Shown here: positions 591-64,000 of the stretch, piece after piece
Position numbering within the stretch: the first letter of the stretch is position 1
Layout of the letters: each line of letters starts with the position of its first letter
Origin: Apostichopus japonicus
Lineage: Eukaryota > Echinodermata > Holothuroidea > Aspidochirotida > Stichopodidae
Assembly: GCF_037975245.1 (NCBI RefSeq)
Contig: NC_092580.1
Coordinates: forward strand, 21,748,501-21,812,500
Direction: 5' to 3'
Length of the DNA: 64,000 nt
Translations under genes and position numbers: made by a program
The notes under the pieces: generated by a model
Databases searched by the model: none
What the model saw: only the letters and a program-made list of their open reading frames with translations
What the model was told of the DNA's origin: nothing

Positions 591-3500
591 ATAAGTTGAA
601 GATTCCACGACATGAACGTTTATTTGATCTCTACGGTGAAGGTTAGTTTGATTTATGTTTTGTTTGTTCTATGCTGTTTAATCATTTGATTTTTTTTTTT
701 TCCTGTTCGATATTTTGATATTCAGCTGCCCTTTATATCAACATGTCTGCTCAAAAAAAAGAAGTGTTTACTCAGTTCACTATAGCTACCATTTGAACGT
801 AATTTGCGATGATGTGAGATCATGTTAGAAAAAGCTGTACACTATGTTTATTTGAGTACTTCTTAAATATTTTATGTGCTACTGTCATTGTAATATGCAT
901 TGTTTCCTAACTTTGTTCCCTTGTCAAATATTGACAAGTCAGATCTTGATTTTAGTTGATAACTTGAGTTTGCAAGTGGACTGGCATTCAAATGAGCAAT
1001 CAAGGGTTTTTAAAAGGCACTGCTAAAGGCCATTTAAATTTGACATCATTTTAAATGTGATGTAATTTATGTTAATCTTACTTACTCATGCTAACTCTCA
1101 CACCTAATACAGGGCAAAAATTTCAATGGTCCATCAGGTGGATTGATGCAACCAACTTTCTGTTTGGATGACCAATATCAGCTTCTGAGGTCGTCCCGAC
1201 GGACGTCTATAATTGTTTACATGAAATTCATATTACGTCGTAACTAAGTACCCTAAATAGGTCAAATGATAAATTGGTATCAGCGGCCACTACTTTCGGA
1301 GATAGTGAAACAGAACACAAATAGTGGTAGGCCTATGTATATATTATGAGTTTTACTGGCCCAAAAGCTGGTGTTCTATTCACCAATCAAACACCTCTCT
1401 GACAGTGTCCATATTGGTCATTCTTTGTTACTTTTTTAACATTTCCTTGGACAATTGTGTTCGGACAACCAAAAACTAAGACCTGGATGTCGGAGAAACA
1501 ACCAGACAATCCAAAACCCTTAAAGAGTGTGAAGACTCACGCACAAAGAAACATCTCATGCCGGTAATCTGACCTAGTTTCGAATGAGGTGTAACAGAAG
1601 TGTTAGACACCACCATCGATCCCAGAAAAATACACACACAGCTTGCTACCGTCGGTAATTAGACACTAGTGTACAGTCAATACATACAGCTACGGTAAAT
1701 ACCCAAAACACAGTTTACATAGCAGCGTGGACATCTCAGGTCTAGATAAAAGATAACAAGGTATCACGTTTCATACTGTCTGCATTTTGTAGGGACAAGA
1801 AGAAAACGTCATATGCAAGCAACGGAAAGTTAACTTTTACAGAGCGCGGCACGCGATTTGGGGCGAGTCTTCAATGCCTTTAAAAATTTGCAAGCATACA
1901 GTTAACAGTAAATGTTGTCCATGGTCTTGTTTTATTCCACTGGATAAAATGTTCTGCATTTACTTGTTGTTATTTTTATTTTGTCAAATAGGTGATGAAA
2001 ACTTTCTGAGATACCTAAAAAATGTGCAGACGGGCCACATCATCTTCATCGTTACCTTTGACGACGCTTCCTACCGCATGTCAGACGAAACCAAACATTA
2101 TCTGAAGGACCACTTTGGAAGCCGTGAAATAATCAACTTGAACTACCGGGGTTCCTGGGTCTTCGTAGGTCAGAAAGGTGGCAGGCATGCAAAAGAATTT
2201 GAGGCAGTAAGTATTTGCTTTTAAATGTTTTTGTGGCCATTTTGAGCATAAAAGGTTATACCTTCTTTCCTCTTGTTATTAGCTTCGTTGACGATTCAGT
2301 TCTTGTTTTGCTTTCTTCCCCTCATTGACGTGGGTAAAACTTTAATCGTTCCCTTCTGATATTTGCAAATACATTGGCATAAAGCGAATGGGAAAATGTA
2401 TTGCTTTAATGTTACAACAGATGGAAATCTGTTACTTTCCAAAAAACCAAAAACACATAGAGAAGGCCTTTGACACATTTAAGAATACCCATATGTAGCT
2501 AAAATTATAAACTATATAAAAAGTATGAAGTCAGCAAATGTCATAAAGTGGTTGTGATATAACAAAATGCAGAGCCCCCTCATAAAGGACCAAAGGAAGT
2601 ATGAAATAGTAATTACTAAACAGCCCTTTACATTGAAAAATGTCTTTGTACAAATATAATTAAATATATCTCTAAAGTGCCATATTCTTTGTTGTTTTTA
2701 CTTTCAGGTTGCACAGAGAGCTGACGAGGGTTCATGGGCTGACTCTGTAAGCATCAAGGGGTGCTTGTCCTTTCCATGTGAGATTTTAATAACAACAACT
2801 ATTGAACATGCATACACATACAATAATATACAATTTATAACTGAAATCATATAGCCATATTCCTCATCTCACTAGCTATCACTCAATCATAAATGCAGTG
2901 CTGTGAAGTGTCTCACCCTGAGAGGTGTAAAACCTGCTGCACACTGCCCGACTGAAAGCAGTCTGGCTTGATTCAACCATTAGAATGTGGAATATATCAT
3001 TGATGGTTGGGTAGTCTGCCTGTGCTTTATAAAGATACGACTGTGCCAGATTTTGCCAGTTTTTATGCGGTGTCGGTTTCCATAGGGGATATACTCAAAA
3101 TGTAGGGCTTCATGACCGCAATTGCCCAGTGTAAACAAGTGTAGCTAGTCACAAGGAAACAATTATGCATGTTACCAAAACAAGAACTAATCCTTAAACG
3201 TTAAAACTAGAAAACAGCAGTCAATTTCCATCCGGTTGTGTTAAAATGGTGAGTGTATGGCTTGCTTAAGTAGCTGAGTATGTCTTACCAGTCAACAATA
3301 AAATATGTTTAGTCCTTTTGACGACATAATATACAATCCATACACCCACGCTATGAATGTGTTGCAGGCTTTTAGCAGGCAATATGCTGATGTTTTGGCT
3401 TGAAAGAAGAGAGACTTTCTTGAGGTTTTCAGCATCTGTTCATCCGCGTATACCACCTGGACCAACTTTGTCAATGAGGAGAAGTGCAAAAAAATGTACC

Positions 3501-6500
3501 AACCATGGAAGCCCATGTGACGTGCTCCCTTGTAGCACTCACCTGATCCTGATCTCGTAGCTACCACATTCCTTGTGAAGCTAGGTGAACAGTGTTTTCT
3601 AGCAAAGTGGTACATTGTTCCAATGTTAAACAGCAGTTTTCAATTCCAAAATTTGACATTTTGAAATATTTTCTTTCAAACAATGGAACTGCAGCTGGAA
3701 CGCATGTAGCTTATTAGGACTCTACACAAATGAACATAGACATGAGAAGCAGAAGACAGGATTCGTTGTTCCTTAGCAACACAAGTCTTATCGCCAATTT
3801 TGCACATAACATGATCATAGGTGTGACCGCCGTATACATTCTATAAAAACTCTGACAGTAGATGTTTGAATAGTTGCCAGGGTCCATGCAAATCAAGCAT
3901 TTTATGTGTGAAAGTAACTCTGAACAACATTTACATTCAAACATAAGTTATTATTATTCTCAAATTTACTGTACATGCCCCATTGTAGTGGGGTACTTAT
4001 GTCTACGGAACGCTAATCATTTGGAACTGACATAGGATTAAATAATATGTTAGTAGCACCTGGGAGCATGTCACATGAATCGTTGGTATTTATTCTTACC
4101 CTGGAGTGAGAGTTCAAGGTCATTTTTAATTTGATGCATCTGTTGAGTGAAGGATGCTAAAACATTAAACGTTGCATTCATGTGTATTTGCTATAAAGCA
4201 GGAGACATTCAGTTGTTAATGCAGCTGTTTATATGTTTAATGTATTGAACTTGATAAAAGTTTAAATAAATTGTCTAGTGAGGCATGATCAACCATTTAT
4301 TTATCGTGACAGTGATTTTAAATAGATCTCATATTTGTGGTATGGTTATCAAGGATGAAGTGTGGGGGGAGGGGGTTACATTGGTTTCCGTGACAAAAGG
4401 CTGTAGAAGTAACGACACGGTCAAAAATGTGATTTGAAACGAAAGTTGAAGAGAGAAGACAAGAAAATTTATAGCTCCGTGGAAAGAAAATTAACTCATC
4501 ATTAGATCAACTTTATTTTAACATTCAGCTCTTTTGAAAAATGAAACTGAGGTTCATCTTGAATGTTTCTTGATTATATTCTGATTGTTTCCCCTAAAAT
4601 TTTCCTTTTGAGGATTGACATGTTTGATTGAGGGTATCTTGACTTGTTGCTTTCAATCACTGTTGACAAACCATGTCTGTTATATCTTTCTCTGAAGTGG
4701 TTGATTCCTACTTGCATACAAACATTTTATCAGACTTGGAGAATGTTTCACCAGGTATAGTGGACTCTTTTCCTCTTATCCTTATAAATTAAATAAATAA
4801 TTATATAAATTAATCAATCAATCAATCAATTGGTCAATCTTTTTCTAACACCTTGCTTGTGGCTGAAAATTGCAAAAGGAGAGGGAAATTAGATCTTTAA
4901 TATTATTATTGGCCAGAAAGTAAAACTCTTAAGACTGTGCATGTTTTTGCTTCGACTGTTGCTTAATTTTCCTTTCCAAATCACTAGTCTATTTGCATGA
5001 AAGAATTCTTCAGTAAAACTAAATAGTGAGTACCAGAGAATGACAAATCTCTACCTGTAAGGTAACTCTCTGATCGCCATATTTACGGAAGGTTTCTTCC
5101 GTTTTTTCAAAGTGTGTAAAATTTTCTTTTTTTTTATCATGTAGTTTAAATGACCTCATTTGAAAGTGGAACTGTAGCAAGGCATCAACTGCCGATTTTT
5201 CTCTTTTTATTTAGAATACAAGAATGTTTTCAGGTGGAGATTTTCACAATTTTAACCTCTTGCTATATAAAAATACAACTGCTTGAAAAAAAATTGAACT
5301 TTCTGGCATTTTGTTAAAATTTATAACACCCATCAGTTACTGTACAGTCTTATTACAGCAGCCCAGTGATATTTGCTGGTAATAATCAGTATTATACAGA
5401 GCTTTTGTTCAGTACAGATTGCAGAATTTTTGGGGGGACTGACTATGGTTACCAAACTTATCAATACTTCATGTTCTGAATGTCTACTGGCAGTTTTGTT
5501 TGATCTACTGGCAAACAGCAAAATGCACAGGTGTTATAGTCAGTAGATAGCCTAAAGTTCAAGGCCTGGGTTTATAAAGAAAAATATAATAATTTTAAAT
5601 TGATTATTAAACTGAAGTTTGAAAAACCCAACCATGTTCTCATCTCGGTTGTATTTGCAGTGCAATCTTTTCTGCTCAAAGATATTCCAGTCGGATAAAT
5701 TTCAACATGTCATTGGCTGGAAAGTTTATCCAGCCGAGCAGCTAGTGTGTTTTTTTTTCAGGAGTTACGGATCACATCACTCACTGTCCAAAGTGCGGTG
5801 ACTCGAACAAGTTTATCAACGGAGTAATACAAAGACCGAACTCAGTGACTGAACTCAAGTCATGAGAACCTGTTAGTAGGATGACTTGACTTATCTTTTT
5901 GCTCCTTTTGAAGCAAAGGTAAAACAAAGAAAGCAAAGAATAAAAAATAAGAAAAAAAATAGAAAAAAATAAGAAAAGCCTGAGCAGTGCCTCTAAAACT
6001 AACAACTTTGCTTTAATGGAAAAAGAGCAAAGAACTATCTTTTCTCTCTCTCTTTTCATAAAATTTCCCAGTCAGCTTTCTGTTGTTCCATTTACTTATA
6101 CATTTATGTATCAAAAGTCAAATTTCTCTCACAATACCTTTCCTGCTGCTTCCTGGGTTGCATTGAATGAAACGCGGGCAAAACCAATGGTTACAGGGTA
6201 TGCAAGGTACTGTGGCTTCTGACTGGCGCCCCTAGCAAAGAAATGGCCTTGTAGGGAACCCCACCAACTAATAGCTCGATAGCTTTGGTCGTTAGAGCAT
6301 TGGGCTTGTAACCAAGAGGTCACTGCTTTCAAAAATGTAGTTGTGAATTTCTTGCTACTTTTCCATCGTTTACAAAGTGCCAGTCAGTTTTTCAGTTCTT
6401 AATTTACTTATATAACTTTGATTTAAAGCAGTTTCATGCATTTTATTTCTGAAATAAGACACCCAAAACTAGCTTTCCCACCTATTCATTTAGTAACCTT

Positions 6501-9500
6501 TAAAAGTTGAGGACATTTTTTTTTTATGTTAATAATTAAATTAAATGGAAAAATACATTATGCCAGGGCAAGAATTGAAATGTAGTTAAAGACATTTACT
6601 GAGAAAACCACAGTTGTAACTTTTAAAGACAGGAAAATGAGGATGCCAGGATTAGCTCTAACCTTTCTTGGTAAATTTCTTTGCAGTGAAAAACACTAAC
6701 AGTGCAATGTGTGGGATGAAACTTCCTTGCTCTGGAAATGAAACTGCTGTGAAAATTGTCTCTGCCAGTTTGGAAAATACAGCCTTGCTTCCTGTATCGT
6801 TTTGTGTGAATGGTAAAGAGTAAGTAGATGGATTTATTTCTGTTTCATCCACTGCAGTGGTGGCCACTTTCGGCCTGAAATTCAAATTCAAAATATGCAC
6901 AATGCTTATGGCTTCTTCTCTGTTTGTCGTCTGTGGAAGATAATAACAAATCTAGTGTTTTCATAATGTTGTAAGTGCTCAAAAGTGCATACTTTTGCAT
7001 GTGCATATGTGCAAATAAAAACATTTTCTGACTCTGAGGTTTATCATTTATGGAACAGCACATTTGTTCTAGATGTCCTGTGTTTAATCATCACCAGCAT
7101 AGATACTAGTTACATCTGCTATGAAAGTGTGGTAGGCTAGATACATTGGCTTTGAAAGTGTGGTAGGCTAGGTACAACTCCTGACCTGTGTTAGGCTAGG
7201 TACCTCTCTTATAGCAGTGTGGTAGGCTAGATACATCTGCTATGAAAATTGTGGTAGGCTAGGTACATATCTGCTATTTGAAGTGTCTAAGGCATAGGCT
7301 ATAAGTGTTGATATTTGTTTTGGAAAATGACTGAATTTTTCTCACGGTTTGGTCATGGTGTTACTGCAACAGACATTAAATATTTTGTCTCCCCTTTGTT
7401 TACTTGTGAAATTTAAGAAAGAAAACTAGCTCATAACTGTAAACTGGATAGCCCACTCAACATGAAGCATGAGTTTCCAGCCATTCGGATTCTCCCACAT
7501 GCATGTATGTGGCTGCCTATAAACTACTGCCTTCCAGGCTGATCAACTAGACCTATAAACCTGGAATTGTTTTAAAAATTGATTAAATCGATCTGGACAT
7601 TCACGTAACACAGACAAAAAGATAGTTATACTTTATCATAAACCAGCTTCTGTGACATTTAAACTTTCCCATTGTGTGTATCCCGGCCAAGATTCCCTCA
7701 TTACATCATCAGAATCTTTAATTGTTTTCTTCTGTTCCTCCCATCTAGAAAGTTTGCAAACATTGGCGGCCGTGGGCTGAACTTTCTAGTGTACGATTTG
7801 GACTGGGGATCAGTCATCAGATCTCAATCATTTGATACTTATGTATCAGGTATGACAGTCATTATTATTTGCCTATTGATTGTAGCATAGGTCTGGCATA
7901 AATGCAATGTTCCCTTACACTAATGATCAATAAAATCTTGACTATCAATCTATATAGTTCTACCAATGACAATATTCAACCAACACTCTGGTCTACGATG
8001 TTAATATTTCCTCATGCAATATTTCTCAACACTATTTTTTATGGGGCAAAAGAGGTCAAAAAGTCAAAAGTATTTGTAGTGCAAACCAGATGAAAGCTGT
8101 GTAAATGAAATAAAAGTGTTTTAAAACAAAACATTACTTATCATAGTCATTGTCTTTTATACTATTTCACTTTTTGTTCAAAGCTAAGAGAGTCGTTTGC
8201 CATAGCTCATACTCTCTGATCTAAGTTCACATCAAAGACACTTTCTCTTAATAACCTCAAACATTTTCCCTTGTATTAAAATGTCCAATATTCTTCCTGT
8301 TAAGATTTGCAAAAGTTCAGTCTTATATGAATTGTCTATACTAACCAGACTGCCATTTAAAACAACTCTTCTGTAAATGGGTAGAACAGCTATATGCTTG
8401 CTATATATCTGCTTTAACCTGTGAACGTATGATCATTGAAAAAGAAAATAATATTTCTATGTTATTCATGACCACTTAATCCATGTGTTTGTTTCATAAT
8501 TTCATGTCTATATTAGTGTCATGCAGAGTTCTATATGACAGAGTGTAGATTCATTTCTGTGTGTAGATTTATTGAAGTATTCTCCTTCATTGAATTCACA
8601 TTCGCAGAGGCCGAAAGTGATAGATTGGTTGAATTTCTACGGGAAGTTAACGAGAGGCAACTCCTGATAGGAGCAGTGTCTGACGATGCCTCGAGATGGT
8701 AAGATAAATGATAAAAGTTAACTTTGATGCATCTCATAATTGCATTATACTTTTTGAGGGAGTAATAGTCATAATATGCAAACTAGCAAATGGTTGTATT
8801 TTTTTCGGTCCGTAATATTTTTTTCATGTATTTCTATCTTGTTATCGTTTTGTTAGTTAATTTCTCATTCATGCCAAAAATTGTATCTTCACCTGTTAGT
8901 GATAAACTGTCACTACCAATGCATACTTTATTTCATCTTGTTTTTATAAGTTTTCACATACATTTGGACATAAAACTAGGCCCCCTCCCCCTTCCTCATG
9001 AATGAAAGAAGTTTTGATATGATTCTGGTTACTCCAGTACATGTGGCTTTATTTAAAATTTTGTGCTCTCAATTAGTGTCCAAGAAAAATTGCCAATAAT
9101 TTCTATAGTAACAGTTAGTTTGTACATCTCAACTTGACAAAATAAGCAGCAAAGACAAATTTGATTTGATTTTCAAAATTTAAATTCAACAAAACTCTTC
9201 CATCTATCATTGTTGAGTTGGTACTTATGATGTGTATTACATAATGAGAAAGCCTTGTGATATTTGGACATGAATATTCATTTTGAAGCAGCCAATATAT
9301 GTTGTTTGTAAACACAATTGCACATGTGCAATGAATATTTATTTTGGAAAAGCCAATAGTCTATTTATGTGAGCTCCAGCTAGAAATGAATATTCATACT
9401 GTTGTTCATATTCATATTGTCGTTGCAAGGTCGATGGAATCTGTTTACTTCTAGATCATTATGGTATATTTTTGAAAATTACTTGAAAGTCACAACAAAT

Positions 9501-12500
9501 ATCACGGACATCTACCCTCTTGAATCTACCTTTGAAAATGATCATTATTAGAAGGAAAAAAATGGTAATCCTTGTAACTGCGATTCAGTCGAGTGCCTAG
9601 AATTTTTTAAGTTGATTTTACTGTTTGATTGCAGATTTTAAAGTGTTCTATCTGTCATGGGTATAGTTTCTAAAATATAATGTATTTGTTGGGTAATTGC
9701 CTACTTCTAGTATCATCTTTATCTACTTAAAGGGTGTGAAGACTCGCTCAAAAAGAAACGTCTAATGCCGGTAATTTGACCTAGTTTTGAATGAGGTGTA
9801 ATAGAAGTGTTAAACACCACCATCGATCCCAGAAAATACACACACAGCTTGCTACCGTAGGTAATTAGACACTAGTGTACAGTCAGTTCATACAGCTGCG
9901 GTCAATCACAGTGTACAAACCATACAGCGATGGACATCTCAGGTCCAGCTAAAGATAACAATTGAGGTATCACATTTCATTACTGTCTGCATTTTGTAGC
10001 AACACGAACAAAATGTCACTTGCAAGCAACGGAAACTTTACTTTTGCAGATGGCCGCACGCGGTTTGGGGAGAGTCTTCAATGCCTTTAATTAATCCTTT
10101 TGCAAATCCATCGTAATCCTCGTACATTGTTTTTTGTCTTTATCGTCATTGTAGGTTGTCTGTCCATGCAAAAGATATCTTGGAGAGATTTGGTGCCATC
10201 AAGATCCACGACTTAACGTTTAAAGGAATGTGGGTGTTTGTTGGCATGAAAGGTATACAGGGTTCTTCCCCCTTCGAAGAGATGAATCTTGCCAGCAACG
10301 TTAACGATAAATCAAAGGCTAAAGTGGCACTGAATGCCTGCATCCCAGACAAAAGTAAGTTTGTCCATTTAACTCAGCTTTGCTGCCTGTGTCTGAATAC
10401 ATAGAGTTTCATGTTTGTTGTAATTATGTCATCTCATCACTTCATTTTGTGGATGTTCTAGTTTTAATCATTTGGATATGCAGGATGTCCATAAAAAAGA
10501 CAGCCTGCAGTTGTTTCTATAATTATGTTTGAAGGAAAACAGGTTTAATAAACTACACTTTCCTTATAAAACAAAGGAAGATCCTTCTTGAGTGCTAAGG
10601 ACACATAATTTAATCCTCAAGCATAAGTGATCGAGAAAAGTAATGTGGAAATGAACAGTGGCAAATTTGAGGTTTAACAGTTAGGACGAGGCAGTTTAAG
10701 ATTGTTCGATTTAGTACGATTAAATAGACATGTATGGGTTACAGTAGATCGATGTTACTTTTTAAAATGCTTACCTCACCTTATCTCTCTCTCTATTTGT
10801 CAGTCGAGGGTTTCCGGGTCTTACATCCGTCCGAGGTGAGAAGACGGGAGTTTTGTAAGAAATATCCGTCGTACGTAGATCTCTGTTCTGGTGAGAGGAA
10901 GAAGGACCTCAGGGCGCTGCCATTGGATGATATGTCTCTACATAAGAACAAAGCGTACAGCACCCCCATACTGGTCATTGGAGGTATGAGATGATTCTAT
11001 AACCTCTGCATGTAGGATCTGTCATATGATACAGTGTTCATACAGTGCATATGATACAGTGTTCATACAGTGCATATCATACAGTGTTCATACAGTGCAT
11101 ATCATACAGTGTTCATACAGTGCATATCATACAGTGTTCATACAGTGCATATCATACAGTACATATCATACAGTGTTCATACAGTAGACAGTGTTCATAC
11201 AGTGCATATGATATAGTGTCCATACAGTGCATATCATACAGTGTTCATACAGTGCATATCATACAGTGTTCATACAATGCATATGATACAGTGTTCATAC
11301 AGTGCATATCATACAGTGTTCATACAGTGCATATCATACAGTGTTCATACAGTGCATATCATACAGTGTCCATACAGTGCATATCATACAGTGTTCATAC
11401 AGTGCATATCATACAGTGTTCATACAATGCATATGATACAGTGTTCATACAGTGCATATCATATAGTGTTCATACAGTGCATATCATACAGTGTTCATAC
11501 AATGCATATGATACAGTGTTCATACAGTGCATATCATATAGTGTTCATACAGTGCATATCATACAGTGTTCATACAGTGCATATGATATAGTGTTCATAC
11601 AGTGCATATGATATAGTGTTCATACAGTGCATATCATACAGTGTTCATACAGTGCATATCATACAGTGTTCATACAGTGCATATGATACAGTGTTCATAC
11701 AGTGCATATCATACAGTGTTCATACAGTGCATATCATACAGTGTTCATACAGTGCATATCATACAGTGTTCATACAGTGCATATAGTGTTCATACAGTGC
11801 ATATCATACAGTGTTCATACAATGCATATGATACAGTGTTCATACAGTGCATATCATATAGTGTTCATACAGTGCATATCATACAGTGTTCATACAGTGC
11901 ATATGATATAGTGTTCATACAGTGCATATGATATAGTGTTCATACAGTGCATATCATACAGTGTTCATACAGTGCATATGATACAGTGTTCATACAGTGC
12001 ATATCATACAGTGTTCATACAGTGCATATCATACAGTGTTCATACAGTGCATATCATACAGTGTTCATACAGTGCATATCATACAGTGTTCATACAGTGC
12101 ATATGATATAGTGTTCATACAGTGCATATCATACAGTGTTCATACAGTGCATATCATACAGTGTTCATACAGTGCATATCATTCAGTGTTCATACAGTGC
12201 ATATCATACAGTGTTCATACAGTGCATATCATACAGTGTTCGTACAGTGCATTCACAGGGATGCATGCGGGACTGTTTGCAGAGGTTGACTGCTGAATAA
12301 CAAATTTATACAAATGATTGCATTCACCAATATGTAGAACATGCAATGCAGTAAAGGCTTGTTTATAAATTTCGTAGCTTCCATATAAAGATAATCTAGA
12401 TGATTTGTAACATAAACCAAAGCTTTAACTGTAAATCAGTTTTCCTGATGACATCATTAGAATGAAAAATAAGCTTAGATTCTTTCTTGCTGTAGCATAC

Positions 12501-15500
12501 TTAAGGTTACTATGCGACAAGAGAATATTCATTGAATGTCAATGTCTTTAATTAGGACTTTAGTTATTGAATTGAACTGTATGCAAATGATCCTATGGAT
12601 AACAGTTAACCTTTCACATAAGTGCCAAAATTGACTACCCGTTTCATTCATTCATTCACTCATAGGTGCTGATCTGAAAGCATTGCAAAGATGCATGGAT
12701 TCATTGCTAGAAATTCCAGGACTTAACAGGGATAATGTTTATGTAGTCCTAGAAGGTCACTTTGAGGAACCTAGTGACCTGGTTAAACTCTATGGATTCA
12801 GGGTCAAAGAGCAACCGAGTTTCCCAAGTTACCATGGTGAGAAGATGTTTGGTTCTATGTTATCTATGACAGAGGAAGTTATTTCCTCATAATGATGACA
12901 GTTTGTATTAACATTTATTTATCAAACTTAAGATTAGGCTTTTTAGAAGTATCACTAATTGTGTAATGTTTTGGTGTGGAGTTTTGATTTGAAAGTTACT
13001 ATTAAACAATAGACAACTAACTGACAACTGCATAATTGAACTTGCATAGGTTGTCCTCCTAGATTAATCAAAATTATAAAACAGCTAAATCTAATTAAAT
13101 AGTAAATCTAAATCTACATATTCTCATATTTTTAATTAATAAATTTAACTCTGTACTCTAAGAGAACATCATTAAGGGTTATAGGTCTAGTTTCAACAAA
13201 AGGCCAGACAAAAATATTGCTGTTATCAATCTGATAAAGGGCCCAGATTAAGAGAACTTTTACAGCTCAGCTTGTAAACTGAGGTGATGCCTTTATATTT
13301 TTGTATGTGAAATAACCTTGAATGGGTTGTCTTTTATACTTTTGTACACTACTGAGTGTCCAATCAAAAGACCTTACTATCAGTTTAGTTCTTTACAAAA
13401 ATTTGTATAATTTTGTTCCTTACTGTCAATGCTCTCCTTTTTCACTCGACAGAAAATTTGCGAAGGGCTTTAGAGCTAAGTCTGACATTTCAAAAGGACA
13501 AACCTTATGTGATTGTTCTTGAGCCTTATTTGGAAGTGTCTCCTGATTTTTTGAGGTATTTCTCCCAGACTCTTCATCTGTTGGAACAAGACCGATCACT
13601 TTTGACAGTTTCAGCGTGGAATGAAAATGGTGAGCCATTCGCAACAAAGAGATAGATACTTCTTATTTGCTTTTGGTTTCGCTTTGGTTTGCATTTTTGG
13701 ATCAGACAACAGTGTACCAGATCTATATAATACATCTCTTACAAAGAAATGACAATAATACTTCCATAATGGTAATGGGGTTAGTAACTTTGCTATGATG
13801 TAATCCATTAAAGTGGAGACCACATTAATTTTTTATTTATAAACAAACTCAGTAGGAAAATCAGCTTCTTTTCCTTTTCTCTTTAGGTTTCATTCATTCA
13901 TCCGGTGCAGCCCAGATTTTTTACAGAACACAAAACTTCCCTGGGTTTGGGTAAGTCTGGTTTATATTGTTTCAGATTACTTCATTATTTCTCTGTCATG
14001 AATTGTTTTTCGCTCTAGTATTATAAAGTCAAATATAAAGTCAGCATTGCAATATCAACAAGTCAACATGGACACAGGTTTGCTTTTGTACATAGAACCC
14101 TGGTCAGTTAGAATTTGAAATGTAGACGGTTGTATTTCTTTTGATTCCCTTGGATCATTTGGTCACTGAGTTTGTATCAGGCTAACAGACATTTAACCTA
14201 GTGAGGCAATATGCTAGATTTGCTAAAATGCCTACCAGGATTTTGAAACACCCTTTGAAGCACCTTCTACAAAGATTTAGATTTAGAATAGCTTGGTATT
14301 CATAGTATGGGAGTCTTTTATTGTTGCTAATAAATCTTAACTGCAATAGATATAAGTTGAGCGAGGATTTCTAAAACTGAATTTTGGTAACCAGTAATTC
14401 TTCCTTTGCTTCATGTGATGGTCATTTTTGTCTACTAGTCATGCATGTATTTATACTGTTTTATTCTATTCAACCATGTACAATGTTTTATCTTTGATGT
14501 TTGTTTTTAGATGGGTTTTAAGTAGACCTCTCATGGATGAGATTAGAGACACAAAGTATGAATGTTGTCAAGAGCCAACCTGGAGGGGATGGTTTCAAGG
14601 TAATGTATTTAATGATTGGAAATTGTTCTACATCTCCTCCTTCCTCTCAAGAATTTATTAATTATGTCTTTATTTTGATAAAAGTTTTGCTCTCATACAA
14701 AGATGAGCTGGAAATCTCTGATATTTTCTGGCTTAATTCAGAGACAAATTTTTAATTCATTTGTTCTGCATTAGTCAGATAGCTAAGTAGCTATGGTAGC
14801 TGAGTAGCAACATTCGACTGGATTAGTTACTATCACTGAAAGTTGGTAGAAAGGGTTAGTAGGGTCAAAGGGAGGGGGGGCAGAAGGGGGGGGGGGGAGA
14901 GGAGGAGGGAGACTTTGTTTAAATTGTAGAAATCAGGACAAATGTTGAAGGAAGCTAAATCAAGAAGATTGTAATATATGAATAGTTATGCAGATCTTTC
15001 ATTTTCCACAGACTCTTAATAAGTAAACATACAGTGTGATATTTGCAAAATTGTCTTATGTTTTCAAACACTGATTTAAGACAATTCTAGCATCCTTGTG
15101 GGAGAGATAATTAACACATTATTGTGTAAAGATAGACTGGGGGATCTTTGCATCTCATATGTAAAGGTAATGTCACTTTATCTGCCTGTCAGCTGTCGTA
15201 GAATTTTATTTCAATTTGCAATAAGAAAGTAATACATTTTTTTTAGTCTTGATACATGACATCAGGAAAATTTTATTTCTTTATTGTTAATATTAATGTA
15301 TGCACAAGTGTTGCTGACTAATTGTCAAACTATGCAATCTCTGTCGGCTAGTGCCATTCTCATAATGTTATTGGCTGTCTAAATTGTATTATTTATAAAA
15401 AAAAATGTGCTATATTTTTATTAAAAATAGGTGAATTCTTGAAGGGAAGGGAGATAATAGTACCAGATCTTTCACGTGTAAGGCGTTCCTTGCCGACTGG

Positions 15501-18500
15501 TTTTACGATGGAGACACCGTTTCTACGGAGATACTTAAAAGATAGGATATCATCGATGTAAGTCTATCTTGCTGTGCATTCCAAAATGTAACCTCTTCTC
15601 CCAGTCTAGTCTATTCCAAAATGTAACCTCTTCTTCCAGTCTAGTCTATTCCAAAATGTAACCTCTTATCCCAGTCTAGTCTATTCCAAAATGTAACCTC
15701 TTCTCCCAGTCTAGTCTATTCCAAAATGTAACCTCTTCTCCCAGTCTAGTCTATTCCAAAATGTAACCTCTTCTCCCAGTCTAGTCTATTCCAAAATGTA
15801 ACCTCTTCTCCCAGTCTAGTCTATTCCAAAATGTAACCTCTTCTCCCAGTCTAGTCTATTCCAAAATGTAACCTCTTCTCCCAGTCTAGTCTATTCCAAA
15901 ATGTAACCTCTTCTCCCAGTCTAGTCTTCAGTTAGGTTGCTAGATCTTCATCAATGCATCAATGCAATACACTTAACAATATGTTTTATTACCACTTTAA
16001 GGGTGACTTTGGTCAATTTCTGTCTTTTAATATTTCATAGTCTAAGAAAAGATGGAAACTCAGATTGCTTGTAATGTTACTTTACTTATTCCAGTTTTCA
16101 ATGTATTTAGCTGCCTGAAATGCTCCTTTAAGGCTAAACTGATGATGTTGTTGGTTTTTCAATGCAGGCCTTAAAGTTAATGTACATCCATTGTTTTAAT
16201 CAATTCTAATATTAAACTCAACTTGCTCATCTTCTTGTAACTTCAGATGAACAACAGAAACTCCTTGGACGACATTCACCATTTATTTTATCCTCTGCAA
16301 ATATTTAAATGCACCTTGAAAATGTTAACTGAGGCCGTCAAAAATGTTGCTTTTTGAGTTTTGTGTAGCATAAGAGGAACTGGTCAGTGTGTTGGTCAGT
16401 GTGTTGGTCAGTGTGTTAGACTAGAAGCATGCAAGTTCCTGCGAGTTTCTGCTTGCAGGAGGATCTAAAATACATACAATATATACATACAAGTACTTTA
16501 ATTGATGGTTCTCAGATGTTTAAATGGTCATTTTAAAGACTTAAATTTGTTTACTGAATACATTTTTGCTTGCCGTATTTTTTGACAGCCTATAATATAT
16601 CAAAATAAATTTGTTGCCTACAGTTACCCAATGAATTGCATATTGTTTCTATTTACACATCTCTATTCCTGAAAATATTCCTGTCTTAGAGCTGTAGTCA
16701 TTACATTTTTATTTTTTCAGTTGGTTGAATAACATCAATAAATAAACATCTTTCTTGTCATTTGTCTTTGTATCTTGCAAATCCCTCATCTTTGATATTA
16801 TGATTTTTGTTTATTTTATTACTTTCCTAGCAACTCCAATTTAGAGCCCACAGAGACATACAAATTAACATATCATGAATACGAAACAGAGATTAAGTCT
16901 TTGATTGCCAGCAGTAGATTACTTAACACTACAGTATTACACCAGTGCTTACAAGATGGTACTCGACTTGCTACAAGTCTTTCTTTGGGATCAAGGTAAG
17001 AATTCGACTTATTATGTAATTTATGTCAAACTCTTTGATGGCAGAGGGGAGGAATCATTTGTACCGAGAGTTGTCAAGGTCCTGCTATCCATCTCACTGT
17101 TATCCATAACAAACTTTGGTACATATTAAAGCAAACAATACATGTACTGACTCAAGAGCTGGATATGAATAGTGGTTCTAAAATTTAACTTTCTATTCCC
17201 CCCCTCCCCTCCCTTCTCTGCTACATCTGTCCCTCACCTAATACAGACATACACTTGCATGCACACACACACACAGATATATGCTCACTTGTCCATTGCT
17301 TGGGTTTCTGTTACAATACTAAGCAACCAACCCTGAAACCCCCAGCTTGCCGGTTATATCGCAATACATTTAGTTTGGCGGTCACTGAGAATTGTTTACT
17401 TCAATCTCAGTTTTAATATGGATTCACTTTGGCCGGAAAGTCATATTTTGTGTGGGACACATATTTTGGTTTCTTTTAATGTGAACACCTCGCTCAGATT
17501 TAATGGAGTGATTTTACTAAGTTTTAAAACCTACTTAACATTTATTGCCATCAGTTATACACACCGTGTCCTGATACGATTAAGCGTTACCACTCTGATA
17601 TCTCTGTGGTCATCCACAATAGGACAGACAGTCACTGAAATCTGCCAAAAGAAGAAGAAAGAGAAAGAATATTTATCATTATCCCAGGCGTGTAGCCAAG
17701 GGGGGGGGGGCGAAGGGGGCAGCCGCCCCCCCCCTTGAGCATATTTTTTACAATTTTTTTTAAGGTTTTTATGATATCGCTAGTATTTTCAAAAGAGAAA
17801 ATGCTAAGATGCAACTAACAAGGCATGGGAAGTGCCATTTTCGGCGATCTGGGAGGCATTTACAGCCAAAATTTTCTTGTACGCTTCGCGCCAACCATGG
17901 TGGCGCTACGCTTAGATAGTTTGCAATGCCGAATCTACAGTTTCGCCCCTCCCTTGGCAAATTCCTGGCTACGCGCCTATATTATCCATATCTCTTTGTA
18001 TGTGGACAACATTTCAACATTGCTAAGCATTTGTCTTCATATCTCAGTTTGCCATTGTCTTGGTATGATACATTTGTTGGGTATTATTATTAATCAGATT
18101 CTCAACCAGATAGAGAGGGTAAAGGAGTAAATAAGTGGGGAATCCATAGTCATACCCCTTGTTCAAATGAAATGAGTTTAAAATTACCAAACCTGAGGAG
18201 AAGGAAATATAACCAGGATTTGTTGAGGAGATAACATTTTGCCAATGAGGAAACTCATTTACTCTTTCCTCCATCTTGTTACAGTGCAATCTATTCGGTG
18301 TATTTTCATCAGAGTTCTGCCATAGATGATTCTGTCGTCAGGAAGCTAGCCTCTTGTTTCGGTCTTTCTAACGAGGAGGAAGTACCATTTAGAAACTGGC
18401 ATGAGTCTGTCGTCAGGTGAGTTTCTAGCTGACATGCTGCGTCTGTAGATGTGTGAATGACTCAATGCTGCTACCTACACCGTCGGTACCTACGATATGT

Positions 18501-18927
18501 GATATGGATGATGCCGTTTTAAGAGATTCGCAAATGTGGTTACTCTCGGATGCTATTTTATGTTGTCAGCATATTTTCAGATGTCAAGAATCACCATAGC
18601 TACGACAGGACGATATTACAAATAAAATCCCTTGATTTTGCCTGTAAAACTGTTTGCATTAGCACTAAAGACTTGGACAATGGCACTGTACACCTTAAAC
18701 ATAATCTCTTGGTTAAATAGCATCTAGTCATGTTGATGTTAGTAACCTGCAATTAAAAGTCTGTATTCTCCTAAACGACTTACGTTTATGAGTGGACTAT
18801 TTTTACATAAGTTTCCAAAATTCTTTCTTTTTCTAGGTTTACAAGATACAAATCTCAGTTTATTCTGGTGGGCTCCTACTCCAAGTTTTTCCTGAACAAG
18901 CCCATCAATACAGTTATAGTGACATGA
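591..18927 (+). CDS. POMGNT1-like: POMGNT1-like (GT13 family) protein, 3' part, probable pseudoenzyme
   Basis: Sixteen in-frame exons: 591-641, 1992-2206, 2708-2777, 6687-6819, 7749-7849, 8608-8698, 10155-10354, 10804-10983, 12666-12836, 13453-13629, 13887-13950, 14511-14599, 15431-15557, 16831-16995, 18285-18416, 18837-18927 (TGA). They give about 685 codons; the start, signal anchor and any earlier exons lie left of the window. Domain order: ILEI/FAM3-like domain 1 (exons 1-3, FDDAS and SWVFVG motifs), a Cys-containing linker (exon 4), ILEI domain 2 (exons 5-7, SDDAS and MWVFVG), then a GT13 domain (exons 8-16). Family POMGNT1 adds beta-1,2-GlcNAc to O-mannose on alpha-dystroglycan in the Golgi. 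Here the acidic metal-binding motif reads LEPYLEV, the Trp/Asp catalytic segment reads TWRGWFQ, and the CNR-like motif reads VIGGADL, so catalysis is unlikely. The remaining fold is well conserved (SPDFLRYF, SAWNENG, PDLSR). I am sure of the family, less of the function. Confidence 0.85.
1520..1883. mobile_element. MITE, TTAA-flanked, copy 1
   Basis: A 364-bp element in intron 1 of the POMGNT1-like gene. It is bounded by TTAA at both ends, with terminal inverted repeats reading inward as AGAGTGTGAAGACTC on the left and AGGCATTGAAGACTC on the right. A second copy of identical length lies at 9727-10090 in the same orientation and is alignable end to end by eye. A TTAA target site is the hallmark of piggyBac-type transposition, so a non-autonomous piggyBac-like MITE is the likely class (inference). 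No coding capacity. Confidence 0.75.
2778..6686 (+). other. intron 3 of POMGNT1-like gene
   Basis: A long AT-rich intron between donor CCAT|gtgaga and acceptor ttgcag. I see no exon-like segment in either strand that keeps phase. It contains a possible degenerate MITE at about 2938-3135 (loosely inverted ends around ACACTG) and an ATCA microsatellite near 4811-4830. Confidence 0.5.
6257..6335 (+). repeat. possible degenerate tRNA-derived SINE head
   Basis: The stretch around GGTCGTTAGAGCATTGGGCTT followed by AACCAAGAGGTCACTGC resembles a decayed tRNA with A-box-like and anticodon-arm-like segments. No intact B box is visible, so this is only a suggestion. Confidence 0.25.
7088..7290 (+). repeat. 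imperfect ~31-bp tandem repeat
   Basis: About five to six degenerate units end in GTGGTAGGCTAG and continue with RTACATCTGCTATGAAA-like sequence, in intron 4 of the POMGNT1-like gene. Units differ by several substitutions and small indels. Confidence 0.7.
9727..10090. mobile_element. MITE, TTAA-flanked, copy 2
   Basis: A 364-bp partner of the element at 1520-1883, in intron 6, ending only 65 bp before the exon 7 acceptor. Left end is TTAA then AGGGTGTGAAGACTC; right end is GAGTCTTCAATGCCT then TTAA. The two copies share the interior blocks GAATGAGGTGTAA, CACACAGCTTGCTACCG and GACACTAGTGTACAGTCA, with scattered substitutions and small indels that suggest independent insertions of an older family. 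Confidence 0.78.
11023..12258 (+). repeat. 25-bp satellite/minisatellite array (~49 units)
   Basis: Uninterrupted tandem array in intron 8 of the POMGNT1-like gene. The 25-bp unit is CATATCATACAGTG followed by TTCATACAGTG. Common variants are catatGat, ataTagtg and atacaAtg. Variant-marked blocks recur in the same order (about 11480-11640 and 11820-11980), so the array has grown by duplication of multi-unit blocks as well as single units. Because 25 is not a multiple of 3 and the unit has no stop in any frame, long but meaningless reading frames run through it. Confidence 0.95.
14868..14915 (+). repeat. G-rich tract with quadruplex potential
   Basis: Several runs of three or more G, including one of about twelve, separated by short A/C spacers, in intron 12 of the POMGNT1-like gene. 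They could form a G-quadruplex in the non-template strand. No function can be assigned. Confidence 0.5.
15578..15927 (+). repeat. 35-bp minisatellite, 10 units
   Basis: Ten near-identical 35-bp units, each beginning ATTCCAAAATGTAACCTC and ending CAGTCTAGTCT. They start 20 bases after the exon 13 splice donor. Divergence between units is almost nil (one or two substitutions), which indicates recent expansion or active homogenisation. Confidence 0.95.
16379..16416 (+). repeat. 12-bp triplicate and SINE tail
   Basis: Three copies of GGTCAGTGTGTT. Just downstream (about 16428-16490) is a fragment containing GCTTGCAGGAGGATCTAAAA and TACATAC repeats, identical to the 3' tail of the SINE at 49645-49910, so this is probably a 5'-truncated copy of that SINE. 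Confidence 0.65.
17685..17979. mobile_element. hAT-type MITE, 295 bp
   Basis: Terminal inverted repeats read inward as CAGGCGTGTAGCC and TAGGCGCGTAGCC. Flanking 8-bp sequences CATTATCC (left) and TATTATCC (right) agree at seven positions, a near-perfect target-site duplication. An 8-bp duplication is typical of hAT transposons. The left end carries long G and C runs that can pair. It lies in intron 14 of the POMGNT1-like gene and has no coding capacity. Confidence 0.72.
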
Positions 18928-26600: not shown

Positions 26601-29600
26601 TAAATGACCGATTTTGTGGATTTTGCGGGCCTAGGTAGTGTGCTCTTTCCGCCATACAAAAGTGCTTTACCACCTTCGGAGTAAAGCATGACAACATTGT
26701 TATCACTGTTTGCCCTCGCAAGCATGTTTCTGTAGAGCTAATGTAACTCTCATATACGCCACTTTAAGTAGCTCATCTGAGCATTAATGAGTTATAAAAA
26801 CGATGATTTAGCTCATTCTTTGCATCATGACTGTACATGTCTACTAGGTTTGTATTGACCAAAAAAAAAAAAACCTTTTAATTAAGACCAAATTTGACCT
26901 TGAAATGCCCACATAGTCCAAAATATATTGGTAAAATGTGATTTTTGAGGGTGCTGTTCACAGGCATTGTTGGGCATATGACCCTGAAAATGCAGTTTAT
27001 TCGTAGTCCTTTTAATATGCTAGTGTACCACCCTCTTAATTGTTAAGCACCTGTACGCTAATTCTAAGAAGTTGTCATTAGAATTACTCGCAATTTTTGT
27101 GTTGGAAATTTGAGTAGATAACATAATATACACAAACTTTCTACTTGAGTTTTTTAAAAAAAAGGGTCAACACACCACTGAAAAATGGTGTTTAAAGAAA
27201 AAATTGAAATTTACCCTTAGGGCCAAATTGGACCCCAATTAGGGCCAGAAGTGAGATTTCTCAAGTTTAAAGGCGCAGTTCGTAAAACATACGACCCGCT
27301 TGACTTTCTATTGGCACTTTTCCTGTACAACTACCACTGGACAAGGATACTATGCAAATTAAATCTCAAACATGCCTTGTTTGTGAATATGAAGCACACT
27401 CAAAGTATGGCCAGTAAAGGGCCCCTATCTCATTTTCTGCCATTTTAATTACTTGATACGAAAAATTTAGACCGTAAAATGTTCCTCAAAATTAACTAAA
27501 TTAGAAGACTGATCACATGTCTTCCACAATATCTGCAATATCAGACATTAAATAATTTACATTTATGCAAAAGATGCCTCCAAACTTGAGGGAAAATTTA
27601 GGGCTTTTAAAATGCAACCTGGATATGGTTGCTAGGCGTGGCCGTATCCTAGCAACGAAAAGTTTTAAAAAGATTTTTTGCCCAATTTCAACCTTTGAGA
27701 TATGTGGCAAGACACCGTATCAATTTCAGGCGATTCGGAGAGGGTTGACGTGGAATTGACCCAAAAATCTGTTGACTTGGCATGGATTGACCCAACTGTA
27801 TTCGGTCGCAAAAACTCAAGTCACCCTCCTAATCGACAAATCCCTCTTGAAAAATAGTGAAAGTAGGACACTCGTTATATGACATTTAAACTAGTCATAA
27901 TTTTGAATTTCATTGAAGTTCAATTTTCATAAATTAATAACTGATAAGATGAAGCATAAGGGGAAGGGGAAGGGGGGAGGGGTTGGAGGATGTGTGCCCT
28001 AACCCCTAAGTTTTCTTGTTAATTGGGCTTTATACTGGTGCATTTTGGCACTTCCAAAAATTTGTCCCCAGTGGGTATATGAGATAAGCTATATATGCAT
28101 TTGGGTGTTACTTGGAATCACTTTGGTACTTTAGAATATGGATGACAGTAAAAAGCTATATGATGATGTTGACATCATAATGCTTCAGATGCATTTTGTA
28201 GTGATTTAATTTCTTGATTTCAGTGACTTATCTTTGAAATAAGATAACTTATGGAATGTTCTCTTTTCTGAGCTGTCAAATTATTTTGGAATGATCCAAC
28301 AGAACACAATTTTTTTGGAAGAATATTTTCTTCTGTGAATAGATGATTTTCTACCTTTTTTTTTTTTATAAAGAGAACAAACATTTTTAACTCATTTTCC
28401 ATGATGATGTCACTCTCTCAATGTAGCCAGTAGATGCGTTCCTTCAAATTAGACAAGTGTAAAATATCAGCATGTGAAGATGCTATCAGGATGTGAGTTC
28501 TACAGTCTGTCTGTTCCAGAAAATTTTCTGAATTTCGACAGTCACATCGACTGAATTTCAGAACTTGGGAGTAGTACCATTTCCAATTGAGCTCATGTGG
28601 AGAAAGCAGTCCATGTGTAAATTTTTGGGTGTCCGTGGGGGTTTCATGATTTATTTTCCCTGTTTGTGTTAAAAGTAGATATAGCATTTAAGATATAAAA
28701 AAACAAAGAAAGGCAGGATAAAGAGTGACAGTGAAGGGTTGGATGGCATATTTGCACCAAATTAACAAAGAATTATGAAAGGGATCAGAATGACCTTACA
28801 ACTATTATAAGACATATATGTTTTGTTCCTTCCTCACATCACAGCATCCAAATTTAGAAAACGGAATCAAGATGGAGCTTCCACCACTTCTCTTGACTCA
28901 CAAGAGAAACACCAAATCCATCGTCTGGGAATACTTTGGCTTGGAGTGTAGTGAAGATGGCAGCATGAAGGACCGAGACATGGCCGTCTGTAACATCTGC
29001 CTGAAGAGAATCAGCGCCAAAGGAGGAAACACCAGCAACTTATTTCAGCACGTCGGAGTTCATCATCCGGAAGAGTACGCCATCATAAGGGATAAGAAAC
29101 TGACGTGTTACGGCACCCCTCGGAACAAAGATGCTGTGGTAGTCCCCGAGGAACTGCACAGGAAGGTGATCTCGGTCTCGCCGGCACCAAAGATCCGCAA
29201 GAGGAAACTGCCGTCGGGTATTTCCTCGGGCCATGAGATGTATCTTCCTTCTCCGTCCCACTCCACGGCCGCCGTTGTCGGCGGTAAACCCTCTGGGGAC
29301 GCTGCCGTTAGTCCCAAGCACAGCCGAATGACTGAACATATCCTATACTTTCTTGCCAAGGAGTTGGTATCACCGGATATCATGAACAGCAGTGGTTTCA
29401 GACGGCTTCTTAACGGATTTGACTCGCATTATCCAATCCCAGACGGTCAGTACTTTCGTGTTAATTCCTTTCCAGGATTTTACAGTGGATTGCGTACGAC
29501 CATCGCAGAAGAGGTCTCCCGCATGTCATTCTTCTCCGCCACCATCGACATTCTACCGCTGCCCGGTGACGGTGGGGGTTCATATCTAATCTTTTCCGTA

Positions 29601-32600
29601 CATTTCATTAACGATAATTGGGTCTTGAAGCATTGTTGCCTGGTTACTATGTATGTCCCTCCCAAGCAGGCAATTGAAGCAACAGCTGATGGATTGATCT
29701 CTCTTCTCGTGCCCTGGAATCTACCTCCTGAGAAACTCACCTGTGCTATAACAAAAGAATCGCGAGATCTCACCAAAATCTTGGAATATTTGGGATGGCC
29801 GCAACTGCCGTGTTTCGGTTCACGACTCCACCAAGCTGTCAATTCAGCTCTCGAGAGTGATAGCATAGCGACGCAATCGATAAATGATTGCAGGAACTTG
29901 ACAGCTAGCTTTTTGCAAAATGTTGAAAAGAAAAGGAATTTATGGAAAGTCAAAGAAGAGTTGGACCTTTCTGATTATAGTCTTCAAATTGTAAGTAGCT
30001 TGTTTGCGATAGCCAATGGAGCTGATACATGTCACAGCAATGTGTCATTCAATCTCTCTATCGGTCTCTCTCTCTAACGATTGAAGTATAATATTCATTT
30101 ATCTAGTCTGTCCATTAATGTATCATTCAACATTTATCAGTTCAAAGAGTGTTGCTCCCAGCCCAGTTGCTCAAGTTGTTGCGAAACCAGGGCTTAGTAA
30201 ATGTTTACATAAAGGGTAGGTTGAAAGGTCGTTTAAGGTCAAGTCAATCCAAACATGAAATCCTGTGAAATGCTTCTCCTTTAGATTCCATCGCATCTGG
30301 ACTAAATTTGGCGTCCGTGGTCAGCTGGTCAGAGGATGTCAAGGGTCATATATGGTCATAATTGGCCAATATGGATCTTCTGCTTATGGCTTTAACCAAT
30401 TTTGACCACAGTTGCCAACATTCAACATTCACGAGTTGAGCTGAATGTGGATCATCTTGGGTGTTTTTTGTTGGGGGGTGGGGGGGGGGTAGCTAGAAGG
30501 GAGTTGCCATTTCAACAATTTTTTCAGAGAAAACTTGAATATGCATCAAATCTTTCGTAATTTGTACTGCATCAAAGAAGATGCCTGGGTAAGTAGATGC
30601 CAGATAGTGGTAAAATGAATTTGAAATTTAATTCCAAGTTTGCATGGCACTTTGTTTTTTCAGGATCGACCTGGCAGCTGGCAGTCTACACAAGAGATGA
30701 TGAGCAGTGTGATAAAGCTGGAACCAGCTATTAGAAAAGTCCTCACAGACATCGAAGAGCCTCTCTTGGATGGTTTTCCTCTGTTCAAGGCTGTCAACGC
30801 TGCATTGGAGGTAATCACTGAAATAACAGGCATCCTCACGAGTGAGCATTACGTGACCCTCTCATCGATCAAGCCTCTTCTCCATCTGATGACCACGTCC
30901 ATTTTGGCAGTCGCTGTTGATGACCACGAAGTGACCAAAAACCTTAAGAAACACATCGCAGAAACTCTGGTTGCTAACTACCAAGAATATCGCTGTCAGG
31001 TTGTCTTGAACATCGCTACTCATCTGGATCCACGATTCAAAGCTCTATTCAGCGACCAGAGTCAAGCTGAAAACGTTTCCGAAATACTCATCACCGAAGG
31101 CGTCGAGAACTTTCAGACGACAAACAGCAATGGAGACGGCGATGTGAAGGCTGAGTCAGCAGAGAGTGAACTTTCCAAAGGCAAACAGGGTGGTGCATTG
31201 ACAAAGAAGAGGAAAAGCCTCGGTAAACTGTTGGAGGAGCTGAAGACCGCCTCTGACATAGAGACGCCACCCACCAAAATTCTCCGTAAAGAACTCAATT
31301 CGTACCTCTCGGCGCCAAAGGTGGACAGTGAGTGTAACCCGCTCGACTGGTGGAAATTGCAGTCTGGTAGTTACCCAAACCTTGCCGTCTTGGCGAGGAA
31401 GTATTTGAGTGTTTGCGCCACGAGCGCACCATCTGAAAACCTCTTCAACCAGAAGGACGAATCCCCGTTTTTGAGTGGAATGCTTAAAGACCCAGAGGAG
31501 GTGAACATGGCAATATTTTTATCAAGAAACCTGCAGAGTACTCTCTAATGTGCTGACTGGGCTATGCTAGACAATTGATATTTGGGGCATGGAGGTAGAA
31601 TTTATATCGGCAAAAATGAATGAGTTTCTTGCCATTCATAGACTTCAACTGGGAATGATAACGATTAGATTTTTCATAGCAATTTGTGAGGTTTGTGCAG
31701 TTTACTTGTGATAAAAGATTTCTCTGTACAAAATTGTCCTTTGCATTTCTTTGTGTTTGTAGCATGTTGGGTTTCCTAGTATACTGTTCTGCTAATTAAA
31801 TTCCAGGCCAAGATCAGAGAGTATATAGGAATTGTCCATACAGTTTAGCATGTCAATTGCTTAACAAGGTTCTAAAGTACCTTCAGTTTTCATAATTCGC
31901 AATCATTGATTCGACCTATGTAATATATATAGATATCTCAGGTGGGATTGGTTGGTGGGAGTTTTGGGCTATTGTTATAATTTGTTAAGCATGCTGGGGG
32001 ATTGTTATTACTAACAAATGAAATTTCAAAATAGCAAGAAACATTTCAATATTTTTATAATGGTTTTATTTGTTCACTTTTGATATGTTAACCAGATAAA
32101 TGTTTTGAAGAAAAGACACCAACGTGGGTAAAGTTTATGTGGGTAAATATATGATGTCACTGCACAGTGAATGTTGAATGTTCCAATCATTGACAGTTTG
32201 CACTTTACAGTAAAGGAGATATGTATATTGGTCCAAATGAGTACATTTGTCCAAATGCCTTTAATTTTCATCAAAGTAAAATTGCTGATTTTATGTGAGG
32301 TTGTTTATTATTTTGTTTAATTACTATGGATTCCATATAACCGAAAGAAAATGAGGATAATAATTCATGTTTGGTTAGATTTCAATACAGTTGAGGCTTT
32401 GAATGTTCATTGACATGGTTTGATAGTGTATTTATTTATGTATATGTCCTAAAGCACAGACCAACAATTATTTTACAGCAGATAAAATCATGGATGAAAC
32501 GAACGAAAGATAAGTGACAATCGTGGAAAGGAGTAGTTATGACAGTAAACTTTTTGTTACGAAAGGAATCAAGTGTCTGAAATCTTTGATCATATCCTAT

Positions 32601-62700: not shown

Positions 62701-63637
62701 TTTATCTCCCAGCAGATTAGGAAAATCCCCTAAAAGAGGTTCTCCTATTTATTCTTTGATAAGAAATATAAGTAAAGTAAAGTTAGGAATGTATGACACG
62801 GTATATTAGCAAAGTTACATATGCTATCCTACATTGCAAGAACTGCATGGTGGCAGAAGTTGTAGTTGTCGTAGACTGTACAGTAGAGCTATAAATGGAG
62901 TGTGTGTGTGTGGGGGGGGGGGGGTTGGGGTACACGTAATGGCAACGTGGGCATGAAACACTACTTTCATTTTCATTACCTAGGGTATGGTATACTGTGT
63001 GTGTGTACACGTCTTGTCTTACTCTAAGCAATACATATTTGATCATCGAACGTTGAGCTACTCATGAGAATGAATATCTTCCAATGAATAAGTGAAAAGC
63101 AGCGAGAGAGGAAAAGAAAAGAATTCACACAACAACAGATTTAATTATGCTCCAGTAATGAGGGTGACTTCATGGGTAATGTTGCGAATTACATTGTAAC
63201 AATATTGACACGTGTATTCTTCCGCGTGGGAGGGAATTGCCAGTGAAGGCGGTGTCTGATAATTGTATGTTTCGTTAAGTTCTGTTGGATGATGACTGCA
63301 TTTGTGAGAATACTACGGTATTCCACAAATCATGGAAGATACCGTATATAAAGTACAGTAGCACACCCATTCTGTATCCATTATTTAGCAGCATTGTGTT
63401 GAACTCATTCGTTATCAATTTATTAGCAATTATCCTGTAAGATTCTAACATTTGCCACTATAGAAGATATGGAATGTACCACCAAATGGTCATATTTGCA
63501 ACATTCAGGTGTGGGTTTCCTAAACCATTTGGAGCATTTTGAATATGTTATAGTTGAGTTAAAGCTTTAAATACAATGGTGGGAGTCGCCAATGACTTTC
63601 CTTGTTTTGGCAGAAAATGTAGAGTTGTTGTCATATT
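59790..63637. other. region without recognised genes (possible long first intron)
   Basis: Low-GC sequence. Two overlapping open frames at 61403-61642 and 61578-61808 would form one frameshifted stretch, but I recognise no family and see no splice sites that fit. G runs at 62489-62517 and 62909-62930. Confidence 0.35.
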
Positions 63638-64000
63638 GTGACAGGTACGTCCCGTACCGATTACTATAGGGCATTTTGTGACTGGTACGTCCCGTACCGA
63701 TTACTATAGGGTGTGTTGTGACAGGTGCGTCCCATACTGATTACTATAGGGCATGTTGTGACAGGTACGTCCCGTACTGATTACTATAGGGCATGTTGTG
63801 ACAGGTACGTCCCATACTGATTACTGTAGGGCATGTGACAGGTACGTCCCGTACTGATTACTGTAGAGCATGTTGTGACAGGTACGTCCCGTACTGATCA
63901 CTATAGGGCATGTTGTGACTGGTACGTCCCGTACCGATTACTGTTGGGCATGTGACAGGTACGTCCCGTACTGATTACTATGGGGTATGTTTTGACATGT
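63638..64000 (+). repeat. 40-bp tandem array, continues past window end
   Basis: About nine units of GTGACAGGTACGTCCCGTAC followed by YGATTACTATAGGGCATGTT, mostly 40 bp with some 36-bp units lacking one TTGT. Variant bases (C/T in CCGTACYG, A/G in TATAG) are mixed along the array. The right boundary is outside the window. Confidence 0.93.

Follow-up and report, generated by a model that had tools for sequence, protein, structure and literature searches.

Gene model and GT13-like domain

We analysed a 64-kb stretch of the genome of the sea cucumber Apostichopus japonicus (contig NC_092580.1, positions 21,748,501–21,812,500; hereafter the window), whose forward strand carries a gene predicted to join FAM3/ILEI-like modules to a domain of the GT13 glycosyltransferase family, to which POMGNT1 and GnT-I (MGAT1) belong. 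Exon limits were placed by AG/GT splice sites together with an open reading frame. Sixteen exons could be joined in a single frame, which runs for 684 codons uninterrupted by any stop: AG acceptors are present at 16 of 16 exons, GT donors follow 15 of them, the last exon ends in TGA, and the reading phases match at all junctions. Pfam recognizes two ILEI stretches and GNT-I in the joined protein. A preliminary description of this DNA had assigned positions 10804–18927 to a POMGNT1 paralogue with its catalytic motifs erased. That interval runs exactly from the first base of exon G1 to the last base of exon G9 and holds the nine exons of the GT13-like domain, closing with the stop codon TGA; the 16 open exons credited to it are reached only when the seven exons at 591–10354, which encode two ILEI/FAM3-like domains, are counted as well.

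Domain 1 of the upstream part is spread over exon I1a (591–641; middle of the domain, with AG/GT flanks and an open frame), exon I1b (1992–2206), matched in tblastn by the human POMGNT1 stem, and exon I1c (2708–2777), which holds the last part of the domain and is compatible in phase with I2a. Domain 2 starts in exon I2a (6687–6819), which displays the CG..PC..C pattern of FAM3, continues through I2b (7749–7849) and I2c (8608–8698), and ends in I2d (10155–10354). Because the first visible exon opens in mid-domain and no GRG-type stretch of the 5′ part of domain 1 was found in the three forward frames of bases 1–600, the 5′ end of the gene most likely lies upstream of the window start. Two copies of a repeat, 85% alike, are located in introns just ahead of I1b and I2d (1519–1883 and 9726–10090, respectively), and in each a short open frame runs to SLQCL and a stop by an AG site. 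The pair may be an intronic element or a relic of exon duplication.

The homology of the downstream part to GT13 proteins, as proposed in the preliminary description, is not a chance match. The portion from 6687 on (572 residues) aligned with human POMGNT1 (5ggf) at E 2.1e-53 over query residues 46–566, stem included, with rabbit GnT-I (1fo9) at E 1.7e-19 and with FAM3A at E 3.4e-16. Consistently, the Pfam GNT-I profile (PF03071) matched at E 1.7e-23 and 83 bits, above its gathering cut-off of 25.4, and the glycosyltransferase domain is identical to that of human POMGNT1 at 99 of 331 positions (about 29–30%). The GT-A core motifs SAWN, PGxGW and P(D/E)xSR are common to the window protein and GnT-I, and the further strings quoted earlier as signs of a retained fold (SLLEIPG, LEGHFEEPSD, SPDFLRYF, SAWNENG, PDLSR and FILVGSYS) were all found in the joined protein.

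Exon G1 (10804–10983) encodes a linker and the start of the GT13-like domain (TPILVIGG). In human POMGNT1 numbering, exon G2 (12666–12836) carries Asp in place of R311, within a VIGGADL string split between G1 and G2, and Glu in place of D338. Exon G3 (13453–13629) reads LEPYLEV, with EPY where active POMGNT1 has its EED metal motif, so that E394 is replaced by Pro and D395 by Tyr; SAWN is retained in the same exon. Exon G4 (13887–13950) retains YR and PGFG, exon G5 (14511–14599) has Arg at the position of the catalytic base D476 (TWRGWFQ), and exon G6 (15431–15557) retains PDLSR. The C-terminal portion common to POMGNT1 begins in exon G7 (16831–16995) and continues through G8 (18285–18416) to G9 (18837–18927), which encodes the C-terminus (FILVGSYS). 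None of three alignments places His in the column of H371, which they fill with Arg, Ala or Asn. E393, W475 and S496 are retained, whereas Arg substitutes not only at D476 but also at Y499 and H500. Two introns contain minisatellites: the one after G1 has 49 copies of a 25-bp unit (11023–12252), with long open stretches in several frames, and the one after G6 has 10 copies of a 35-bp unit (15578–15927).

The roles of these positions are documented for GnT-I. Its metal is bound by D213 and by no other residue, and D291 has been put forward as the base; GlcNAc is held by E211 and W290, and the α-phosphate and the nucleoside by an Arg and a His that POMGNT1 has as well (PMC7014118 and PMC7948508). 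GnT-I D213 and D291 correspond to POMGNT1 D395 and D476, and our reading of the alignment equates the Arg and His with R311 and H371. Judged by its sequence, the GT13-like domain is therefore one from which the metal ligand, the catalytic base, the phosphate-binding Arg and the His have all been lost. The earlier wording that the catalytic motifs are erased thus holds for these four functions but not for E393, W475 and S496.

Divergence was controlled for with a reference set of human POMGNT1, rabbit GnT-I and four bacterial GT13 relatives. The latter came from a scan of genome contigs that gave 52 pattern matches, of which four were confirmed and all four used; in a parallel scan of viral contigs, 30 stretches fitted the pattern and none was confirmed. 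The bacterial genes (L001:1980-3068, L002:1974-3056, L003:1890-2972 and L004:1953-2966) stem from metagenome-assembled genomes, two of Hyphomicrobiales and one each of Actinomycetes and Gemmatimonadetes. Their products are 33.7, 29.5, 28.9 and 24.9% identical to human POMGNT1, compared with 28.9% for the window protein. Each nevertheless keeps all six of R311, H371, E393, D395, W475 and D476, whereas the window protein keeps two, and their Pfam GNT-I scores are 289–326 bits versus 83; this comparison takes the enzyme activity of the four bacterial proteins as an assumption. Seven positions (the same six and D338) do not vary across the reference set, including 4 of 4 bacterial relatives, in agreement with their description as near-invariant. 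Up to human position 520, 34 columns are invariant in the six reference sequences, and the window protein keeps 19 of them; it also keeps 52 of the 96 columns in which human POMGNT1 and rabbit GnT-I are identical.

FAM3-like modules and relation to known proteins

For both upstream modules, secreted FAM3 proteins are nearer matches than the POMGNT1 stem. Module 1 (exons I1a–c) matched Pfam ILEI at 1e-19 over profile positions 18–90, and its visible part has FAM3C as best match in the Protein Data Bank (55 bits versus 37 for the POMGNT1 stem). The best match of module 2 is FAM3A (65 bits versus 36), and its four cysteines lie at positions aligned to those of FAM3A. In the POMGNT1 stem, GlcNAc is contacted by R129, D179 and R207 (PMC9802357). 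The corresponding residues of module 2 are Arg (I2b, in GGRGLN), Asp (I2c) and Lys (I2d); module 1 keeps equivalents of D179 and R207, both in I1b, the R129 position being outside the visible part. Because the contact residues are mostly present, sugar binding by both modules is plausible.

A similar arrangement has been described for Caenorhabditis elegans FAMP-1 (M70.4), which has two FAM3-like domains followed by a C-terminal domain minimally similar to the POMGNT1 catalytic domain. Many nematodes have one or two FAM3-like domains ahead of such a C-terminal domain, and a similar gene occurs in amphioxus. The second FAM3-like domain of FAMP-1, Fam3L2, has equivalents of R129, D179 and R207 and binds GlcNAc; the first, Fam3L1, is without equivalents of D179 and R207 and does not bind it. 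In the passages of that source, the transferase activity of FAMP-1 is given as unknown and its relation to FAM3 and POMGNT1 as obscure (PMC9802357). The window protein likewise has tandem FAM3-like domains, followed at the C-terminus by a relative of the POMGNT1 catalytic domain, but its GT13 relation is clear (30% domain identity), whereas that of FAMP-1 is called minimal. We therefore file it as FAMP-1-type by architecture, the comparison being with the published description of FAMP-1. Among the papers cited here, the tandem FAM3 and GT13 architecture is described only in PMC9802357.

Human POMGNT1 also has an ILEI-type domain followed by a GT13 domain, with the same C-terminal extension, but it has a single stem domain and keeps R311, H371, E394, D395 and D476, all lost here. 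On its sequence, the window protein does not belong with active POMGNT1. With two FAM3-like domains upstream instead of one POMGNT1-type stem, its closest described kind is FAMP-1 and not a lone POMGNT1 duplicate; the earlier label of a POMGNT1 paralogue was correct as to homology and incomplete in leaving these domains unmentioned. Rabbit GnT-I shares the GT-A core motifs and differs in possessing the base, metal ligand, phosphate Arg and His. COSMC (C1GALT1C1), a GT31 protein, is not known to carry lectin modules. It has a GT-A fold that has lost its DxD and xED motifs, but unlike the window protein it belongs to another CAZy family and has an established chaperone role (PMC7185993). The secreted FAM3A, FAM3B and FAM3C resemble each module and are themselves without a GT13 domain, as described in PMC9802357.

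Interpretation and alternatives

Taken together, it is probable that the window gene encodes a FAMP-1-type protein, in which carbohydrate-binding FAM3/ILEI modules, two or more in tandem, precede a GT13 domain that still bears the sequence hallmarks of its fold and yet would be unable to transfer GlcNAc. The ligands of the FAM3 modules would be GlcNAc-ended glycans, met either extracellularly or in the Golgi lumen, and the dead GT13 domain may provide a rigid acceptor-binding or protein-docking surface. Such a protein would act as a glycan reader or adaptor and not as a writer.

Several observations weigh against this interpretation. Module 1 has equivalents of D179 and R207, of which Fam3L1 of FAMP-1 has neither (PMC9802357), so the match to FAMP-1 is one of architecture and not residue by residue. 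In module 2, Lys replaces R207. The two FAM3-like modules were joined over an intron of 3.9 kb on the basis of phase and architecture. The active-site columns are not enriched in losses, since 2 of 6 are kept compared with 50 of 90 elsewhere (Fisher p 0.41); our argument therefore rests on the functional roles of the lost residues and on the bacterial comparison. Finally, the loss is read from one sequence.

Lost catalytic residues and large repeats in introns would also suit a pseudogene whose decay does not yet show. We consider this extremely improbable, given canonical splice borders and no internal stop in 684 codons. At least 8 of the 12 bases in the four active-site codons have changed. 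In simulated neutral drift, changes at 20% of sites produced about 19 stops, with a chance of 6e-4 of that many active-site changes, and changes at 50% of sites produced about 36 stops, with a chance of 0.19. These odds are only a guide, since the simulation is a simple one of point changes and no estimate of dN/dS, and since the four codons were selected after their changes had been noticed. Neutral decay thus fits badly, and this speaks for continued selection on the protein during the change of its active site, as the preliminary description had supposed. It is also very improbable that the exon models are partly wrong, either because two adjacent genes were joined or because alternative exons restore the motifs. 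The model comes from genomic DNA alone and spans the 3.9 kb gap between domains 1 and 2, but all junction phases agree. A scan of the forward strand at 10355–16830 for E(E/D)D, DxD, WD and NR-type motifs yielded no alternative exon, the one DLD being a chance occurrence in a stop-rich stretch. When human POMGNT1 and the window protein were run against the whole window in tblastn, no match outside the known exons had an E below 0.3; the human query is limited in power because it missed exon G5. The window protein gave 23 matches at E up to 10, of which 15 were to exons of its own gene, and among the remaining eight the lowest E was 1.3; with human POMGNT1, 9 of 14 matches fell on exons and the best other had E 5.1, while a looser search gave a best off-exon E of 0.30 among the matches listed. 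Neither query found a second GT13 copy in the 64-kb window. As far as the window DNA was searched, the loss is not undone by alternative exons.

The main rival is a partner role like that of COSMC, in which the dead GT13 domain associates with fukutin or with the animal's functional POMGNT1 and is placed on O-mannosyl glycans by the FAM3 modules. There is precedent for this: COSMC, without DxD and xED motifs, is a scaffold and chaperone of T-synthase (PMC7185993), and the POMGNT1 stem binds fukutin, POMGNT1 itself having been called "a sort of enzymatic chaperone" (PMC8478517). However, COSMC is described as highly similar in sequence to its partner (PMC7185993), whereas the window protein is 29–30% identical to human POMGNT1 in the GT domain and has other upstream modules. 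Moreover, nematodes, which have FAMP-1, are described as lacking POMT1 and POMT2 and seemingly O-mannosylation (PMC8478517), and the FAMP-1 architecture therefore needs no O-mannose pathway there. We regard such a role as unlikely. Distinctly less likely still is an active transferase with an altered mechanism, whether metal-independent, using another base, or acting on another donor or acceptor. Some GT-A families, such as GT14, are active without DxD by means of basic residues, and the usual base is absent in some inverting families (PMC7185993, PMC7948508). The retained E393 and W475 and the Arg residues at D476, Y499 and H500 would suit such a mechanism, but the metal ligand, base and His have gone together, and with the change of R311 to Asp the residue read as the α-phosphate grip is acidic, the reverse of the GT14 solution. 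For this reason, metal-independent activity of the GT14 kind was set aside.

Surroundings and significance

Elsewhere in the window, two long open frames at 28794–31548 encode a BED zinc finger followed by a hAT-type dimerisation domain, and may represent a hAT transposon or a domesticated ZBED-like gene. Exons of a Cys-loop ligand-gated ion channel lie on the forward strand at 50577–52161, where Neur_chan_LBD scored above its Pfam cut-off and Neur_chan_memb slightly below it (26.3 versus 28.1). A weak tRNA match was detected at 34856–34928 (31.2 versus an Rfam gathering score of 29), and a tandem repeat of 9.3 copies of 40 bp (63632–63997) reaches nearly to the right end of the window.

The sea cucumber gene combines a FAMP-1-like architecture with a GT13 domain that can be aligned residue by residue and whose active site is plainly gone. 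The open question of enzyme activity in the FAMP-1 family thereby becomes testable with one purified protein. The gene also bears on the possible origin of secreted FAM3 proteins from enzyme-linked lectin modules. Tentatively, FAMP-1-type proteins may form an ancient family of animal lectins built on pseudo-glycosyltransferases, with FAM3 domains in tandem as readers of sugars and a dead GT13 body, and loss of that enzyme domain from such a gene may have given rise to the secreted FAM3 cytokines of vertebrates; we hold this to be conceivable though rather doubtful. If true, FAM3 signalling would trace back to the reading of glycans. The gene offers an entry point to what dead glycosyltransferase domains do.

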